This document shows, piece after piece, positions 3,810 to 32,904 of a DNA stretch of 64,000 nt. The notes beneath the pieces are model-generated. The model saw nothing but the letters and a program-made list of their open reading frames with translations. It was not told the origin of the DNA and did no database searches. The stretch spans positions 1-64,000 of the forward strand of contig JAUSID010000251.1 of the NCBI GenBank assembly GCA_030648295.1, read 5' to 3'. Made by a program: the position numbers and the translations under genes. Source of the stretch: Opitutaceae bacterium. GTDB lineage: Bacteria; Verrucomicrobiota; Verrucomicrobiia; Opitutales; Opitutaceae. Each line of letters begins with the position of its first letter. The first letter of the stretch is position 1.

Positions 3810-4298
3810 GAGTTATTAGTTATTGGTGTCTTGCCGAAGCCCCGCGGAGCCGTGCGCAAAGGGCAGAACAAAACGGGGTGCCGTCCCTGGGAGCGCGGGC
3901 GTCTCGCCCGCATGGATTGAAGGGGAGAGGAGCGGCGGTCGGTGAAGCGGGAGTCGGTCGTCGGTGGGACGGTGGACGGCGGAAAACGAAGCAAAGAAGA
4001 AACGGCAAAAAGAAGAAACGGCGGAAGACGGGAGACGCGGAAGAACGTGAGACCCTGAAAACGAGGCCAGTCGTAGCGGAACGCGTGGGCGTCTCGCCTT
4101 TTCACTCATTGGCGGCCTCCGTTTATCATCTCCCCACTGTTTCACCGACACACTGGTTCACCGACTCACCGCCATTGCCCATTACCCATTTGCCAGCGAC
4201 CCGCGCCGAAGGCGCACCAATAACCAATAACCAATAACCCGCCCTCACTCTCACTCCGAAGGCGAACCAACGCCTCACCGCTTTACCGCCTCACCGAT
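3810..4298. repeat. Mosaic repeat array 3 in the convergent gap
   Basis: About 490 bp without a gene. It includes a GGGAGCGCGGGCGTCTCGCC palindromic unit near 3890, purine-rich GAAGAACG(C/T)GAGAC units, ACCAATAACCAATAACC near 4220, and reverse-oriented 8-bp units (GCTTCACC, GATTCACC, GCCTCACC) at 4272-4311 that overlap the ndk stop. The segment 4048-4238 is nearly the same as 5769-5950 in array 5. Confidence 0.85.
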
Positions 4299-4730
4299 TC
4301 ACCGCTTCACCGATGCCACGAACAACTCGTCCGGCGTGAAAAACCGTGCCAGCTCGGCCTGGGCGTTTTCGTCGCTGTCGGAGGCGTGGACGACGTTCGT
4401 CATCATGTCGGCGCCGAAGTCTCCGCGAATCGTTCCTTTTGCGGCTTTCCGCGAGTCCGTCGGCCCGAGCAGATCACGCACGCGTTGCACCACGTCCTGG
4501 CCCTGGAGCGCCATCATGATGACGGGACGCGAGGCCATGAACTTCTCGATCTCCGGATAAAACGGTTTGCTCGCCACGTGCGCATAATGCTCGCGCAACA
4601 CCTGTGGCGTGAGCCGCCCCATTTTGCAGCCGATGACTTCGAAGCCCGCCGCTTCGAACCGGCTGAGCACCGTGCCGACAAGCCGCTTGTCCATGCAATC
4701 GGGCTTAAAGATGATGAACGTTTTCTGCAT
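4299..4730 (-). CDS. ndk: Nucleoside diphosphate kinase
   Basis: Equilibrates the gamma-phosphate between NTPs and NDPs through a phosphohistidine intermediate. The protein is 143 aa, the usual length. It starts MQKTFIIFKPDCMDKRLVGT, carries the NVVHASDS active-site motif with the catalytic His at about residue 115, and the nucleotide-binding lysine in FKPD. The start at 4730 is set by the family N-terminus; a longer frame upstream only translates repeats. The last residues (SVKR-stop) are written by the 8-bp repeat GGTGAAGC-GGTGAATC, so the TGA belongs to the repeat. Confidence 0.97.
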   Translation of the reverse strand: MQKTFIIFKPDCMDKRLVGTVLSRFEAAGFEVIGCKMGRLTPQVLREHYAHVASKPFYPEIEKFMASRPVIMMALQGQDVVQRVRDLLGPTDSRKAAKGTIRGDFGADMMTNVVHASDSDENAQAELARFFTPDELFVASVKR

Positions 4731-5165
4731 AGTGAACCGGCGAACGTAGTTCCCCGCACGCGTTTGGAAAGCTTGAATTCGTGCGAAGACGGGAAGACGC
4801 GGAAGAACGCGAGAACGCGAGACGCCAAGCGGTGAATCGGTAGTCGGTGAAGCGGTGAGACGGTGAAACGGTGAGGCGGTGAGACGGACAGACCAGAGGT
4901 GCGGAGGAGCGGAGGAGCGGAGGAGCGGAGGAGCGGTGAGCGGTGAGCGGTGGATGGTCAGATGTTCAGATGCCCGGAAGTTCAGATGGTCGGATGATCG
5001 GAAGACGAGGAGACGCGGAAGAACGCGAGAATGCGAGACATCGATCGGTGAAGCAGTGAAGCAGTGATCGGAAGTGGAACGCGAAACCCGAAACGCGAAA
5101 CCCAAAACTCAGAACGGACGCCGAAGGCGAACCCAAAACCCGAAACTGGCGCCGAAGGCGCCCGA
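4731..5165. repeat. Mosaic repeat array 4 with clean 8-bp GGTGARRC tandem
   Basis: 435 bp without a gene. The cleanest 8-bp tandem in the window lies at about 4831-4886 (GGTGAATC, GGTGAAGC, GGTGAGAC, GGTGAAAC, GGTGAGGC, GGTGAGAC), giving TGA in all three frames. A GGAGGAGC tandem follows near 4910-4935, then GAAGAACGCGAGA, CGCGAAACCCGAAAC units and GCGCCGAAGGCGCC directly against the response-regulator stop. It also carries the ndk promoter region by position; no promoter motif was identified with confidence. Confidence 0.85.
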
Positions 5166-6962: not shown

Positions 6963-7034
6963 GCCCTCATCGTCTATCGGTTAGGACAGGAGATTCTCAA
7001 TCTTCAAAGCGGGGTTCGATTCCCCGTGGGGGCG
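6963..7034 (+). tRNA. tRNA-Glu (anticodon CTC)
   Basis: 72 nt cloverleaf folded by hand. The acceptor stem GCCCTCA/TGGGGGC has one T-G wobble, the D stem is GTCT/GGAC, and the anticodon stem GGAGA/TCTTC holds loop TTCTCAA, so the anticodon is CTC. The T arm is CGGGG-TTCGATT-CCCCG and the discriminator base is G. CCA is not encoded. It is followed within 5 bp by GGTGARRC-type repeat units. Confidence 0.95.
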
Positions 7035-7038
7035 CTCT

Positions 7039-7071
7039 TTCGGTGAGGCAGTGGTTGGTGACGGTGAAACG
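7039..7071 (+). repeat. GGTGARRC repeat units after tRNA-Glu
   Basis: Units GGTGAGGC, AGTGGTT, GGTGAC and GGTGAAAC directly downstream of the tRNA. This shows the family is not restricted to protein-gene 3' ends. Confidence 0.7.
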
Positions 7072-19389: not shown

Positions 19390-20727
19390 GTGAAAATTCT
19401 GCGGCCTTCTTTGTTCATCCTCGCGCTGCTGGCACTCGCGCCACTGATGCGAGCGGTGACGATGATTTACCCGATCGAAGCGATCGAGGACCTGTGGGCC
19501 CTCGGCGCGGAGGAATTCCGGCAAAAGTATTCCGGCATCAATATCACCGGGCTCGGGCCCAGCGATGAAGGCTGGTATGTTCGTTACCGGCATGAGAACC
19601 TGACGTATCTTTTCGGTCCGGTCGCCGATCGCGAGGAGGCCCGGAAACGAAAGTGGGAGATGGAAGCGGTGCGTGATGCGGCGATCCGCAACCGCGCCTC
19701 GCTCACGTCGAGCCAGGTCGATTTTGTCCGCTTCACGTTTTCCGGCGTATATGGCCGGGGAGGTGGCGGTGGTGGGGGAGCAGGCGAGCTGGCGCGGATT
19801 TCCGGTGACGGTCGCAGCGGGCCCGATGGTGATATGGACGGCGACGGCATCCCGAATTCGAAGGACGATGACATGGATGGGGACGGGATTCCGAATGCGC
19901 AGGACGGCGACGTCGACGGCGATGGAGTCCCGAACGGTGGTGACGATTACATGTACGGAACGAATCCGGGCGGCGGCGGCGAGGAGAGCGATGCCAGGAA
20001 CGGACCGGGGGGAGACCTCGACGGCGATGGCGTCGCGAACGCGAAGGACGACGACATGGATGGCGACGGAATTCCAAACAGCCAGGATTCCGATGCGGAT
20101 GGCGACGGAGTGGGGAATTCCGAGGACCAATACGCGTACGGCTCCGGCCCTGGCGAGCGGGACGGCCGCAACGGACCGCTCGGCGATCTCGACGGCGACG
20201 GGGTTGCGAACGCCAAGGACGACGACATGGATGGCGACGGGGTTCCGAACAGCCAGGACAACGACACCGATGGCGATGGCGTCGCGAATTCGCAGGACAA
20301 ATACGCGTTTGGCAAGACCGCCGCGGAACGCGGCGAAGGTGACGGGTCGCAGATGGCCAAGGGCGGTCGCGAGGGCGGCGGCGGCCAGAGCGGCGAGGAA
20401 AGCAGCCAGGGTGGCGAGCAGGGCCAGAGCGGCCAATCGGGCTCGGATCAGCAGGCCGGCTCGGAGAAGAGCGGACAACGGCAGGTGGCATCGAACCAGC
20501 GGTCCGGGGGCAAGCAGAGCCAGCAAGGCAAGCAGCAAGGCCAGCAAGGGCAGCCGGGCCAGCAGGGGCAGCAGAGCCAATCCGGACAGCAGAGCAGTTC
20601 TTCGAGCAGTCAGTCCTCATCTTCCGGACAGCCAGGAATGCCTGCGCCTCCGGGCGGCGGCAGTCCGAGCAGCGCCAACCCGCTTGATCTTATTGTCGGA
20701 CTCTTCCGCAAAATCCTCGGGATTTGA
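19390..20727 (+). CDS. Secreted thrombospondin-type-3 calcium-repeat protein
   Basis: 445 aa. A signal peptide (LFILALLALAPLMRA) and an N-terminal folded segment of about 120 residues lead to a Gly tract. Three blocks of DxDGDGxxN-type calcium loops follow (about residues 146-190, 207-252 and 262-308; each has three DGDG units, for example GDMDGDGIPNSKDDD). A 110-residue Q/S/G-rich tail ends in a short hydrophobic helix (LIVGLFRKILGI). The DGDG loops bind Ca2+ in known TSP3 proteins. The terminal helix could anchor or export the protein. Third gene of the block. Confidence 0.8.
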   Translation: MKILRPSLFILALLALAPLMRAVTMIYPIEAIEDLWALGAEEFRQKYSGINITGLGPSDEGWYVRYRHENLTYLFGPVADREEARKRKWEMEAVRDAAIRNRASLTSSQVDFVRFTFSGVYGRGGGGGGGAGELARISGDGRSGPDGDMDGDGIPNSKDDDMDGDGIPNAQDGDVDGDGVPNGGDDYMYGTNPGGGGEESDARNGPGGDLDGDGVANAKDDDMDGDGIPNSQDSDADGDGVGNSEDQYAYGSGPGERDGRNGPLGDLDGDGVANAKDDDMDGDGVPNSQDNDTDGDGVANSQDKYAFGKTAAERGEGDGSQMAKGGREGGGGQSGEESSQGGEQGQSGQSGSDQQAGSEKSGQRQVASNQRSGGKQSQQGKQQGQQGQPGQQGQQSQSGQQSSSSSSQSSSSGQPGMPAPPGGGSPSSANPLDLIVGLFRKILGI

Positions 20728-20770
20728 TCGCCGCGCGGGTGGAGCGCGGGATTGCGGCCGGGCTCTCGGG

Positions 20771-22081
20771 CTGAAGCGCGCGCTGGTAGCGTTCCTGGTT
20801 TTCGCGCCGCTGGGTTTCGCGGCCGAGTTGGACGACGCGACGAAGGCGATGGCGCTGGCGGCTGAGGCCGCGACGGCGGCCGAGGCAAAGGATTTTCCTG
20901 TTTACCTCGAGAAGATCGAAGCAGCGGTGGCGCTGCGGCCCGACTTCCCGCAGTTGCTGACGAATCTGGCGGCGGCACAGGTGGCGAACGAGCGGTTGGA
21001 CGATGCCCTGGCCACGCTCGAGCGTCTCGCGGCGCTCGGCATGACCGCCTCGTTCGACAAGGCGGAAGAGTTCGCGGCCTTGCGCGGGCGGAAGGAATTC
21101 GACGCGGTGGTGCGGAAGTTCGCGAACAACGCGCATCCGATCGGCCGCGGCGAAATGGCGTTCAGCCTGCGCGACGTCACCGGTTTGATCGAAGGCATGG
21201 CCTGGCGGCAAAAAACGGGTGAGTTTTTCTTCAGCGACGTGCATGAGCGGGCGGTCTGGCGGCGGAACAAGGACAACACGCTGCGGCGGTTTACGCCGGA
21301 GGGCGACGAACTGCTGGGCGTGTTCGGGTTGGCGGTGGACGAAGGCAATGGCGTGTTGTGGGCGGCGACGGCGGCCGTGCCCGTGATGCGCGGGCACACG
21401 GCGGAACAGGCCGGAACAGCGGCGCTCGCTGAAATCGATCTCGAGACGGGCGCAGTTCGCCGGACGATAGCCGTGGCCGCCGGATCGGGTGATCAGCAGC
21501 CGCACTTGTTCGGCGATGTCGCCGTTGGAACGGATGGCTCCGTCTTTGTTTCCGATAGCGTAGGTGGCGCCATTTGGCGGCTCGCGGCCGGTGCGGACAA
21601 GCTCGACGTCTTTGCTCAGGGCAGTGGTTTTATTTCGCCTCAAGGGGTCGTCACTCTCCCCGATGGCGGCGGGCTCATCGTGGCCGATCGGGTGAATGGA
21701 TTTTTGCGCGTCGAGGTGCCGGGCGGAAATGTCGCCCGGCTCGAGTCTCCCGCGGGCACGACATTGATCGGCATCGACGGTCTGGCGCTGGCCGCTGGCG
21801 GCGATTTGATTGCGATTCAAAATTCCACGTCACCGAAGCGGGTCGTCCGCATCACGCTGGAATCCGGTGGTGCCGGGGTGACTTCGGTGACGGTCCTCGA
21901 ATCGGGTCACCTGACCATGTCGGCGCCGTCGTTGGGCTGCATCGCGCAGGATGGCGATTTTTATTTTGTCGGGAATGCCGGCTGGTCGCGCTTCGACGAG
22001 AGCGATGCGAAACCGACGGCGCCGCGACCGGTGCCGATTTTCAAAACGAAGATTGCGCTGCCCGCGGCGGTGAAACGGTGA
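20771..22081 (+). CDS. Secreted NHL/SMP-30-like beta-propeller protein
   Basis: About 436 aa if it starts at CTG 20771, which opens a clear signal peptide (KRALVAFLVFAPLGFAA). No ATG or GTG precedes it in frame near the signal; TTG 20693, inside the upstream gene, is an alternative. An N-terminal helical TPR-like region (about 20-110) leads to a propeller with strands such as GLIEGMAWRQKTGEFFFSDV, GLAVDEGNGVLWAATA, GDVAVGTDGSVFVSDSVGG and GLALAAGGDLIAIQN, as in SMP-30/gluconolactonase-like proteins. Its stop TGA (22079-22081) falls in the GGTGAAAC repeat. Fourth gene of the block; function inferred only from fold. Confidence 0.75.
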   Translation: MKRALVAFLVFAPLGFAAELDDATKAMALAAEAATAAEAKDFPVYLEKIEAAVALRPDFPQLLTNLAAAQVANERLDDALATLERLAALGMTASFDKAEEFAALRGRKEFDAVVRKFANNAHPIGRGEMAFSLRDVTGLIEGMAWRQKTGEFFFSDVHERAVWRRNKDNTLRRFTPEGDELLGVFGLAVDEGNGVLWAATAAVPVMRGHTAEQAGTAALAEIDLETGAVRRTIAVAAGSGDQQPHLFGDVAVGTDGSVFVSDSVGGAIWRLAAGADKLDVFAQGSGFISPQGVVTLPDGGGLIVADRVNGFLRVEVPGGNVARLESPAGTTLIGIDGLALAAGGDLIAIQNSTSPKRVVRITLESGGAGVTSVTVLESGHLTMSAPSLGCIAQDGDFYFVGNAGWSRFDESDAKPTAPRPVPIFKTKIALPAAVKR

Positions 22082-22493
22082 AACGATGAAACGGTGAGGC
22101 GGTGAGCAGAAGCGAGGAGGCGAGGGGCGGGAGGCGCAGTGGTCGGATGGTCGGTGGAGCTCGAACCGGAGCGGGCGCAGCTTGGCGACCAGGAATGGCA
22201 AGCTGATGACTTTGCGTCTCCGCGGCTTCCCATTCCCTGTAATTCGCGTCCATTCGCGGTTGAACCGAATGGCCGGGATCTTGACCGCGGATAACGCTGA
22301 TCTCGCGGATTAGACGCGGAGCCGCGAGGACCATCAGCGCCATCTGCGAACTCCGCGGTGAAATGTCATTCCTTCGCGCCCTTCGCGGCTTCGCGTGAGC
22401 CCCTCAACTCTACCCGCCGACAGCCCGCGATCGTGTGATCAACATCGACTCGGCGACGTGTTCCCGCCGGAATTGTCCGCCTCCTCGCGACCG
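22069..22493. repeat. GGTGARRC array and word repeats after the propeller gene
   Basis: 22069-22108 is a strict 8-bp array (GGTGAAAC twice, GATGAAAC, GGTGAGGC, GGTGAGC) that contains the upstream stop codon. Beyond it, about 22272-22370 carries a degenerate ACCGCGGATAACGCTGATC/CATCAGCGCCATCTGCG element related to those at 29771, 32990 and 33737, and CCCTTCGCGGCTTCGCGTGA. The last part holds the sulfatase promoter by position. Confidence 0.75.
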
Positions 22494-32800: not shown

Positions 32801-32904
32801 ATCACACCGGAGGCCGTGTCCGCCGCAAAGGCCGGACCGCCGAAGGCGAGTAGCACGAGGGCCAGGACGCCAACTCCGTGGGGGAGGGAACGGGTCGCTT
32901 TCAC
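29863..32904 (-). CDS. TonB-dependent receptor
   Basis: 1013 aa outer-membrane importer. A signal peptide (GVLALVLLAFGGPAFAA) precedes a carboxypeptidase-regulatory-like domain (about 32-110, GRITNQATGDVLPNAVVSVE). A plug follows (NPGAAVGEIMQRLAGVAID, GAIYIRGMTQDFSSLLIDGA, SVEVIKSPTPDMDGNAIAG), then a ~750-residue barrel ending in GTSFKLGMTTRF with the terminal Phe needed for Bam assembly. It is probably an oligosaccharide transporter serving the neighbouring sulfatases. No SusD partner is present, as is usual for Verrucomicrobiota of this kind. Confidence 0.95.
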   Translation of the reverse strand: MKATRSLPHGVGVLALVLLAFGGPAFAADTASGVITGRITNQATGDVLPNAVVSVEGTELRALADLDGRYQLGTPAGPRTLVVSYPGLDAQRIAVEVAPGARLTRDIALNSSLYVMDKYVVKGLREGQAAAIQEEREAPNVRTVAALDAFGNPGAAVGEIMQRLAGVAIDGAGGEVGAIYIRGMTQDFSSLLIDGAQIAVSGGTTISNGNVYFGQVSTGTLASVEVIKSPTPDMDGNAIAGYMNLRTKRAYDRTPGRLISLTTGTAWAKSYNDGSVPYKDHPEVDLVNLSYSDVFSVFGGRNNLGIVGTFMRNIGNGLITEVGPRQAAAAQNAYFTAAPAGDARLEPLLRAYGAGQWGALGHQSPVLNLGLNADYRLSENTTLFVKSTYNRNKRRSGSSSSYFRWKLVTTAAAANFLPGSTYEVVNARNGTVDLESVLYIRESESTTLSTGVEQKLFAGTGRLNVDFNYSKNRTLYPQLNQLFARLTGVSWQLDRRGRDPFEPLVTQTGGPDWTDPVNYTVRPDSQLISYSAPARRWGGRADLQQDFATRFPLTLKVGLKQAHYEQTANRDLNYYTYAGPPTTPQTGGTMPWVAYPMKMSGGTYGPFPFLQLPETGMGGDVWADRRNWRQTTSDVWNTEYQSRLNDAGFKETINAAYGQGSIRVKRLRVLAGVRLEQTRTRGSNNLRVSNATNNNLATATPEENAARARANFRGWVTQGTKYRNTFPGLHLVYLLGANTQARASYSTSITRPSPVSLLPTLVPNELSQTLSAGNPGLQPYTSDNFDVSIARYLSGVGQVSAGAFLKEITNYFRSFRTTVPEGPDNGFGGEYAGWTLTQNRNIGSARIRGIELSHQQQYTFLPGFWRGFGSFANYTYLETQGDFGAATGTLKRLPNLTPHTVNAGLTYRGYGFDVRLMMNYRGEFYRSSTSGTFGTGAGVLPGTMFYDVYQHSRTLWDFKVQYTLSRTSTVYFDVYNLTNDWNNNDYLHAFGREIPSYAAGPGTSFKLGMTTRF

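Follow-up and report, generated by a model that had tools for sequence, protein, structure and literature searches.

The gap upstream of ndk in this genome contains an 8-bp unit, GGTGARRC (R is A or G), repeated head to tail, and copies of the unit also lie at the ends of other genes. The original prediction was that such arrays are stop cassettes, which were transposed or amplified and are tolerated or selected at the 3' ends of genes. Do the stop codons account for the placement of the repeats, or are they incidental? We address this question with the window (the whole 64-kb stretch of DNA that was analysed, on contig C155) and with the genome that it comes from (G000), a 9.12-Mb draft in 294 contigs that is 96.6% complete and has a G+C content of about 64%. 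We think it probable that the array is one of many kinds of 7- or 8-bp tandem repeats that are building up in the gaps of this Opitutaceae-like genome, that they grow at gene junctions, and that the supply of stop codons is a by-product.

Tandem arrays around ndk

The arrays downstream and upstream of ndk are as follows (coordinates are those of the window):

4142-4171, - strand: array of AGTCGGTG (GGTGAGTC)
4216-4239, - strand: array of the heptamer ATTGGTT (ACCAATA on the + strand)
4271-4312, - strand: GGTGANNC array whose sequence provides the final residues (VKR) and the stop codon (4301-4299) of ndk (gene at 4299-4730, - strand)
4846-4885, + strand: GGTGARRC array of five exact units, head to tail, inside a repeat-rich stretch (4830-4887)
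4896-4954, + strand: neighbouring period-8 array of GAGGAGCG, with a run of the heptamer GAGCGGT at 4931-4952; its G-strand is oriented as in the 4846-4885 array
5048-5067, + strand: short array of GTGAAGCA units
5078-5108, - strand: array of the heptamer CGGGTTT (AAACCCG on the + strand) on the far side of the gap; its G-strand is oriented opposite to that of the 4846-4885 array

The GGTGARRC pattern had been described as covering 4831-4886. This is correct for the five exact units but not for 4831-4845, which reads GGTGAATC and then GGTAGTC, a 7-mer that shifts the phase before the exact units. The unit does put TGA in all three frames, as would any period-7 or period-8 unit that holds a stop codon. 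This array had also been expected to supply a gene with its stop, but it supplies none: it lies 100-115 bp upstream of the start of ndk and is antisense to ndk. Within the window, the two-unit pattern (at most 2 mismatches) matches 19 times, as compared to 0.71 matches expected, and none of 100 shuffles reached 19.

A short hairpin-like motif (GCGCCGAAGGCGC or CGCCGAAGGCG) occurs at 2837-2849, 4203-4215, 5119-5129, and 5149-5161 of the window, beside ACCAATA and AAACCCG heptamer arrays, and also at 32838-32848, there without arrays. The recurring motif and the heptamer arrays look as if they were parts of a composite dispersed element. A search of phage records with positions 4820-5110 returned no match, and the sole match in an Rfam scan of the window was a tRNA. 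The window also contains coding tandem repeats of 39 and 171 bp (19830-20308), which are rich in Asp and Gly codons and, by eye, look calcium-binding-like.

GGTGARRC arrays are enriched near stop codons

Two adjacent GGTGARRC units match 160 times in the 9.1-Mb genome (counting overlapping matches), while a control with the reversed pattern matches 0 times. We grouped the arrays in a 721-kb sample, which is mostly array-centred by design, into 46 clusters; arrays of two exact units on contigs after C171 are in this set only if they fall inside a sampled stretch. The ndk array is outside the set because it does not have two adjacent exact units. Genes were called by a purpose-written codon-model script rather than by a standard annotator, so that start sides are less certain than stop sides.

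The enrichment at 3' ends that the original prediction called for is present in this sample. In 15 of the 46 clusters, a sense array lies within 25 bp of a stop codon, while arrays placed at random in those gaps average 3.6 and reached 15 in 0 of 1,000 trials. Within 10 bp, there are 13 clusters (null mean 2.3; 0 of 1,000 trials). The other classes within 25 bp are rare: one antisense cluster at a 3' end, and one sense and two antisense clusters at 5' ends. The stop codon is inside the array as drawn for 8 of the 15 stop-proximal clusters, and the array begins 0-23 bp past the stop for the other 7.

The units themselves are variable. Positions 6-7 can be AG, GG, GA, AA, AT, or GT, the GGTGA core is mostly kept, and 7-mers are interleaved. 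In GGTGA arrays, adjacent units are identical in 111 of 305 cases, versus 88.8 ± 5.3 if units are shuffled within arrays, and this excess of identical neighbours is a sign of slippage. Core mismatches per unit average 1.32 and 1.26 at the two edges of these arrays versus 0.75 in the middle, although this partly reflects how the ends of arrays are drawn. Because both edges are degraded alike, while growth from one end predicts a gradient, internal slippage is favoured over one-ended growth. Two contigs of this genome have long perfect GGTGAGAC arrays right at an end (C66, 7-118, and C149, 53935-54022). Assembly breaks thus fall in repeats, and long arrays may be under-counted.

Repeats supply the ends of some genes

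Besides ndk, four other sites in the window were considered:

2522-2545, + strand: one full and one degraded GGTGARRC unit (2 mismatches) at the 3' end of phr (stop codon at 2532-2534)
2535-2897, no strand: gap between phr and an epimerase gene, with 236 of 363 bases under a tandem-repeat row (periods up to 50)
7042-7049 and 7063-7070, + strand: two separated single units (GGTGAGGC and GGTGAAAC) after tRNA-Glu (6963-7035)
22068-22105, + strand: GGTGARRC array that supplies the AVKR end and the stop codon (22079-22081) of a propeller-like gene (20693-22081)

The ndk protein has 143 residues and ends in ASVKR, with its stop inside the repeat, so the claim that the end of ndk is repeat-encoded was accurate. 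All 15 of the same-genus orthologues end at residue 138 or 139 instead (with ELFG, ELFA, ELFV, and similar). VKR is the end of 0 of these 15 orthologues and of 0 of 8 order-level orthologues, so it was not pre-existing. The propeller-like gene was likewise correctly described, as its stop is inside repeat units and the array provides its last residues. For phr, a full unit and a degraded one do form the 3' end, but they are not an array; phr encodes 483 residues, as compared to about 484-491 (in query coordinates) in same-genus relatives with a complete 3' end. Similarly, units do follow tRNA-Glu, but they are single and apart from each other.

Two genes outside the window illustrate different histories. 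The eda-like aldolase (L087) has 210 residues and ends in AAVNR, while 12 same-genus orthologues run to 211-215. Judging from these alignments, the tail of eda was replaced and ndk was extended; their last codons differ from those of all of the same-genus orthologues that we compared. For lpxA (L067), the stop position is shared by 7 of 12 orthologues, of which 3 also have the APGGR ending seen here. The position of the lpxA stop is thus ancestral. Since its CGG-TGA is also the repeat core CGGTGA, the array sits on the native stop. (Of 801 genes with 100 or more amino acids across all sampled loci of this genome, 27 end in CGG-TGA, as do 13 of the 49 genes with an array that overlaps the stop or is within 10 bp of it.) Given its identity to the repeat core, this codon pair could, as in lpxA, seed an array. 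In any case, some C-termini and stops are supplied by the repeats: the ends of ndk and eda differ from those of their orthologues where the repeat begins.

We also compared the junction between phr and the epimerase gene across relatives. In this genome, the scored arrays of period 7 or 8 in 2535-2897 are one that is G-rich on the + strand (at left) and two that are G-rich on the - strand (at right). We kept the best 80 relatives of the photolyase, which are mostly MAGs labelled Opitutaceae, Opitutae, or Verrucomicrobia, and 40 of these 80 named loci have the two genes in this order. Among the 40 junctions, 5 overlap by 4 bp, 9 have spacings of 1-72 bp, 25 are at least 213 bp (in several, with another gene in between), and 1 has a spurious negative spacing. 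In the close relative G122, the gap is about 480 bp and has no tandem-repeat row. Because the junction varies among relatives, a gap without arrays need not represent the ancestral condition. At the nucleotide level, we found no pair of matching sites with and without the array.

Many repeat units, with and without stop codons

A de novo search for arrays of period 7 or 8 in 1.2 Mb of the genome identified 347 arrays, of which 308 are not mainly inside genes. These intergenic arrays form 44 clusters of units; because we clustered at 1 mismatch or less, related units such as GGTGAAGC and GGTGAGTC are counted separately. There is no stop codon on either strand in 185 of the 308 arrays.

To describe the spectrum of periods, we used a sample that is not centred on arrays, namely the window, six stretches of contigs C92 and C265, and 32 contigs from outside the list of those with GGTGARRC arrays. 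Given how these contigs were chosen, the sample leans against that unit. Exact intergenic tandem duplications were counted against a first-order Markov expectation, and there are 96 at period 7 (6.3 expected) and 44 at period 8 (2.0 expected). Periods 4 and 5 are at 0.9 times the expectation and period 6 is at 1.7 times; there are 7, 5, 2, 0, and 1 events at periods 9-13 and 18 at period 14. Per 100 kb, intergenic DNA has 91 duplications of period 7 and 42 of period 8, versus 7.8 and 2.0 in coding DNA.

If the unit were kept or spread at 3' ends because it provides a stop in every frame, then arrays should be placed according to their stops. The 15 GGTGARRC clusters at stop codons are consistent with this, and the TGA of the repeat is used by ndk, eda, and other genes. 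Furthermore, stop-bearing arrays make up 18 of the 27 arrays that overlap the end of an ORF but just 12 of the 41 that lie just beyond it (Fisher p = 0.003), although this excess is partly true by definition, as an ORF cannot end inside a stop-less array. Against this, stop-less arrays share the placement. Arrays of units with no stop on the sense strand, if within 25 bp of a 3' end, are G-rich in the sense direction by 31 to 6 (at 5' ends, by 1 to 13), and stop-less arrays wholly past the stop codon are G-rich in the sense direction by 23 to 5. The same orientation rule also holds at 5' ends (see below), and the position of the lpxA stop is older than its repeat. The stop-less arrays largely rule out stops as the cause of placement, and we consider the selected stop cassette of the original prediction highly improbable. 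Stop content matters only as a filter. Since GGTGANNC at period 8 has TGA in every frame, an ORF whose native 3' end is replaced by a sense array is terminated immediately, which makes the supply of a stop a tolerated by-product.

A strand rule for arrays at both ends of genes

A single rule describes the arrays: whichever end of a gene they adjoin, their G-rich strand, read 5' to 3', leads away from that gene. Overall, 214 of 271 arrays are nearer to the gene on the 5' side of their G-strand, and within 25 bp, 74 arrays are on this favoured side versus 10 on the other. Within these counts, units other than GGTGA are on the favoured side by 52 to 9. All four contexts of gene orientation conform (53/60, 65/81, 64/91, and 32/39, the last being divergent gaps). 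If we consider array-gene pairs with a strand bias, the sense strand is the G-rich one in 59 of the 67 pairs at 3' ends (within 25 bp) and the C-rich one in 17 of the 20 pairs at 5' ends (within 25 bp). By unit, 20 of the 44 clusters are represented within 25 bp of a gene on the favoured side, and 7 of 44 on the other side. The rule is broken by 57 of the 271 arrays, and some units are mostly reversed (for CTCTGGT, just 1 of 5 is on the favoured side).

Arrays within a gap are not independent, which counting one array per gap allows for. By this count, the rule holds in 37 of 46 gaps of the non-centred sample and in 76 of 89 gaps of the array-centred sample. It also holds in 16 of 19 gaps in G003, in 9 of 10 gaps in other genomes that encode Ku, and in 7 of 8 gaps in same-genus loci from genomes without Ku, the last not being significant (p = 0.07). 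(Ku is discussed below.) In the close relative G122, the tendency is weak (10 of 15, p = 0.3).

Within gaps, neighbouring arrays switch from + to - 55 times and from - to + just 6 times, so that the G-strands point inward. Arrays that are more than 50 bp from both genes are still polar (117 of 161, made up of 34/44 and 83/117). The paired arms of a gap share a unit (at 1 mismatch or less) in 9 of 153 cases, as compared to 1,115 of 20,000 random pairs (5.6%). As the arms are no more alike than random pairs, each side of a gap behaves independently.

What might cause the strand rule?

We propose that arrays arise through the polar addition of new sequence at gene junctions. The 3' ends of the G-rich strand would be extended from both sides of a lesion and then joined. 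Extension might proceed by slippage, 7-8 nt at a time, or by the copying of arrays that are already present, with the help of short homology, and the G-strands from the two sides would end up facing the centre of the gap. Events that reach too deep into a gene, or that deprive it of a stop, would be lost by selection. This mechanism, the 3'-extension of G-rich strands at junction lesions, is the one we prefer, though it is unproven and may well be wrong.

The main rival is selection at the level of RNA, in which arrays arise both ways around and the G-rich 5' leaders and C-rich post-stop repeats are removed. The targets of selection in leaders would be sequences like GGTGA or GGAG that resemble Shine-Dalgarno sequences, as well as G-quadruplexes, so that G-rich 3' UTRs and C-rich leaders remain. 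This predicts the same orientation at gene edges. Indeed, two relatives with little excess of period 7 or 8 have C-rich 5' leaders (skew of -0.17 in the last decile of 15 tandem gaps), so part of the bias at 5' ends may be due to ordinary selection. However, RNA-level selection requires two separate rules, one for each end, and the polarity persists across the gap and far from both genes, as described above. In the same two relatives, the skew in the first decile after the stop is just -0.01 in tandem gaps, although this is from 15 gaps only. (In our genome, the mean GC skew just after stops is also small, at 0.03 in the first decile of tandem and convergent gaps of the non-centred sample.) Overall, we view RNA-level selection as possible but doubtful.

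Alternatively, paired arrays might form RNA hairpins that act as terminators or stabilise 3' ends, as REP or BIME elements can. Gaps are ordered with G-rich and then C-rich arrays, and there are 25 pairs from the same family at 2 mismatches or less, a count without a random control. The single gap that we folded, after the eda-like gene (L087:9540-9930), is predicted to form a very long hairpin with a G-rich arm followed by a C-rich arm (z = -8.6 versus shuffles). But arms match no more than random pairs do, so that pairing between the arrays is not expected in most gaps, and this also argues against local inverted copying as a general driver. Moreover, the strand rule holds in divergent gaps, where no terminator is needed. 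A role for hairpins as the general cause is quite unlikely.

It is very unlikely that the arrays expand with transcription, with R-loops stabilising G-rich RNA and driving growth in the sense orientation: this fits the G-rich sense strands at 3' ends, but it predicts a sense bias at 5' ends too, and there the bias has the opposite sign, including in divergent gaps. Finally, it is scarcely credible that a telomerase-like enzyme akin to DRT10 writes the repeats from an RNA template, for although DRT10 yields tandem-repeat DNA from a non-coding RNA template (PMC12632851) and the polarity of the G-strands resembles the growth of telomeres, dozens of unit types would need many templates, the product described in PMC12632851 is a protein-primed single-stranded cDNA, and the genome offers no candidate. 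Specifically, in this 96.6% complete genome we found no reverse transcriptase other than intron types: there are just two matches to RVT_1 (E ≤ 0.001) and both have a GIIM maturase domain. These are the group II intron-type reverse transcriptases L157 (on C37) and L158 (on C83). We did not identify a repeat-growing enzyme in the genome.

Relatives and the repair protein Ku

Among 150 genomes of the family, 19 have matches to two adjacent GGTGARRC units: 160 in G000, 26 in G122, 12 in G003, 2 in G103, and one each in 15 other genomes, no more than the reversed control gives in the family. The three genomes with at least 12 matches all encode Ku (PF02735), which is otherwise patchy, being found in 3 of 27 genomes of the genus (G000, G122, and G006; loci L210, L209, and L208) and in 18 of 150 genomes of the family. 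However, the excess of repeats does not track Ku. Of eight further genomes with Ku, G006, G041, and G052 have no excess at period 7 or 8; G004, G034, and G049, with 3-4 events at period 7, have a small one; and G065 and G089 provided too little sequence for the count. Conversely, same-genus loci from genomes without Ku have 14 duplications at period 7 versus 2.2 expected, and 2 at period 8 versus 1.4 expected (5 of 57 loci were dropped because they overlap, and loci from G122 were left out). This argues against a link to Ku and end joining: Ku is not needed for heptamers. As the relatives without Ku have no excess at period 8, it is the octamers that set G000 apart from them. Because Ku is not part of our proposal, these counts do not alter how we rate the mechanism.

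Comparison to known repeats

REP and BIME elements are dispersed intergenic repeats, often in inverted pairs near 3' ends. In contrast, GGTGANNC is a short, non-palindromic tandem unit, and most of the inverted arms differ. The STRR repeats of heterocystous cyanobacteria comprise several tandem heptamers that are dispersed in intergenic DNA; we know of no polarity rule for them, and they are from a different phylum than the arrays described here. A literature search for intergenic tandem repeats of Opitutaceae found nothing, and among the matches listed for Opitutus or Verrucomicrobia, none looked relevant from its title and the start of its abstract.

The closest architecture is that of the G-rich heptamers GGGAATC and GGGGA(C/T)T, which are dispersed in intergenic DNA of Xanthomonas and Nostoc (Rehm et al. 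2015, PMC4692102). In that study, these repeats are closer to the 5' neighbouring ORF irrespective of the direction of the gene; most downstream repeats are within 50 bp of the stop and on the coding strand, and some overlap stops; there are convergent pairs in Xanthomonas; and no function was found for the heptamers. Repeats of this type are further characterised by GGG runs (for a three-tetrad G-quadruplex) and a preference for four units, and the paper also mentions heptanucleotides from Calothrix. The arrays in our genome are similarly dispersed and mostly intergenic, are near ORFs on the 5' side of the G-strand, and form convergent pairs. Unlike the GGGNATC heptamers, the unit GGTGANNC is an octamer with GG only, and our genome has dozens of units, of 7 and 8 bp, many with GG only, in a verrucomicrobial lineage. 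In addition, we checked the rewriting of C-termini against orthologues and compared stop-less to stop-bearing units.

The TAACTGA heptamers of Beggiatoaceae are also dispersed in intergenic DNA and have stop codons in the unit (MacGregor 2015, PMC4679880). They are mostly just upstream of starts in the main genome, consist of one unit, and are not G-rich, unlike the arrays here. We read this as a known, Rehm-type architecture in a new form, which is rich in octamers, has many units, is from a different phylum, and for which the supply of stops is incidental.

Implications

The strand rule was left without an explanation when it was reported for two similar heptamers from two genera. Here it spans many unrelated units of one genome, with a sharp spectrum at periods 7 and 8, and it is independent of stop codons, of gene direction, and of whether the arms match. 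A broader possibility, which we think unlikely on present evidence, is that the intergenic DNA of this lineage grows directionally: a lesion at a junction would expose two 3' ends, each of which would be extended by G-rich repeats of 7-8 nt before they are joined. If so, there would be telomere-like polar growth inside a bacterial chromosome, by an enzyme that is not yet known. Unrelated arrays would carry the 5' end of the G-strand at the gene, gaps would read G-inward from both sides, and gene tails would be overwritten and given new stops as a side effect.

More generally, our results narrow the question to a polarity at the level of DNA, which can be tested in related strains. They also indicate that non-coding repeats can overwrite the C-termini of proteins, core enzymes among them, as seen for ndk and eda.
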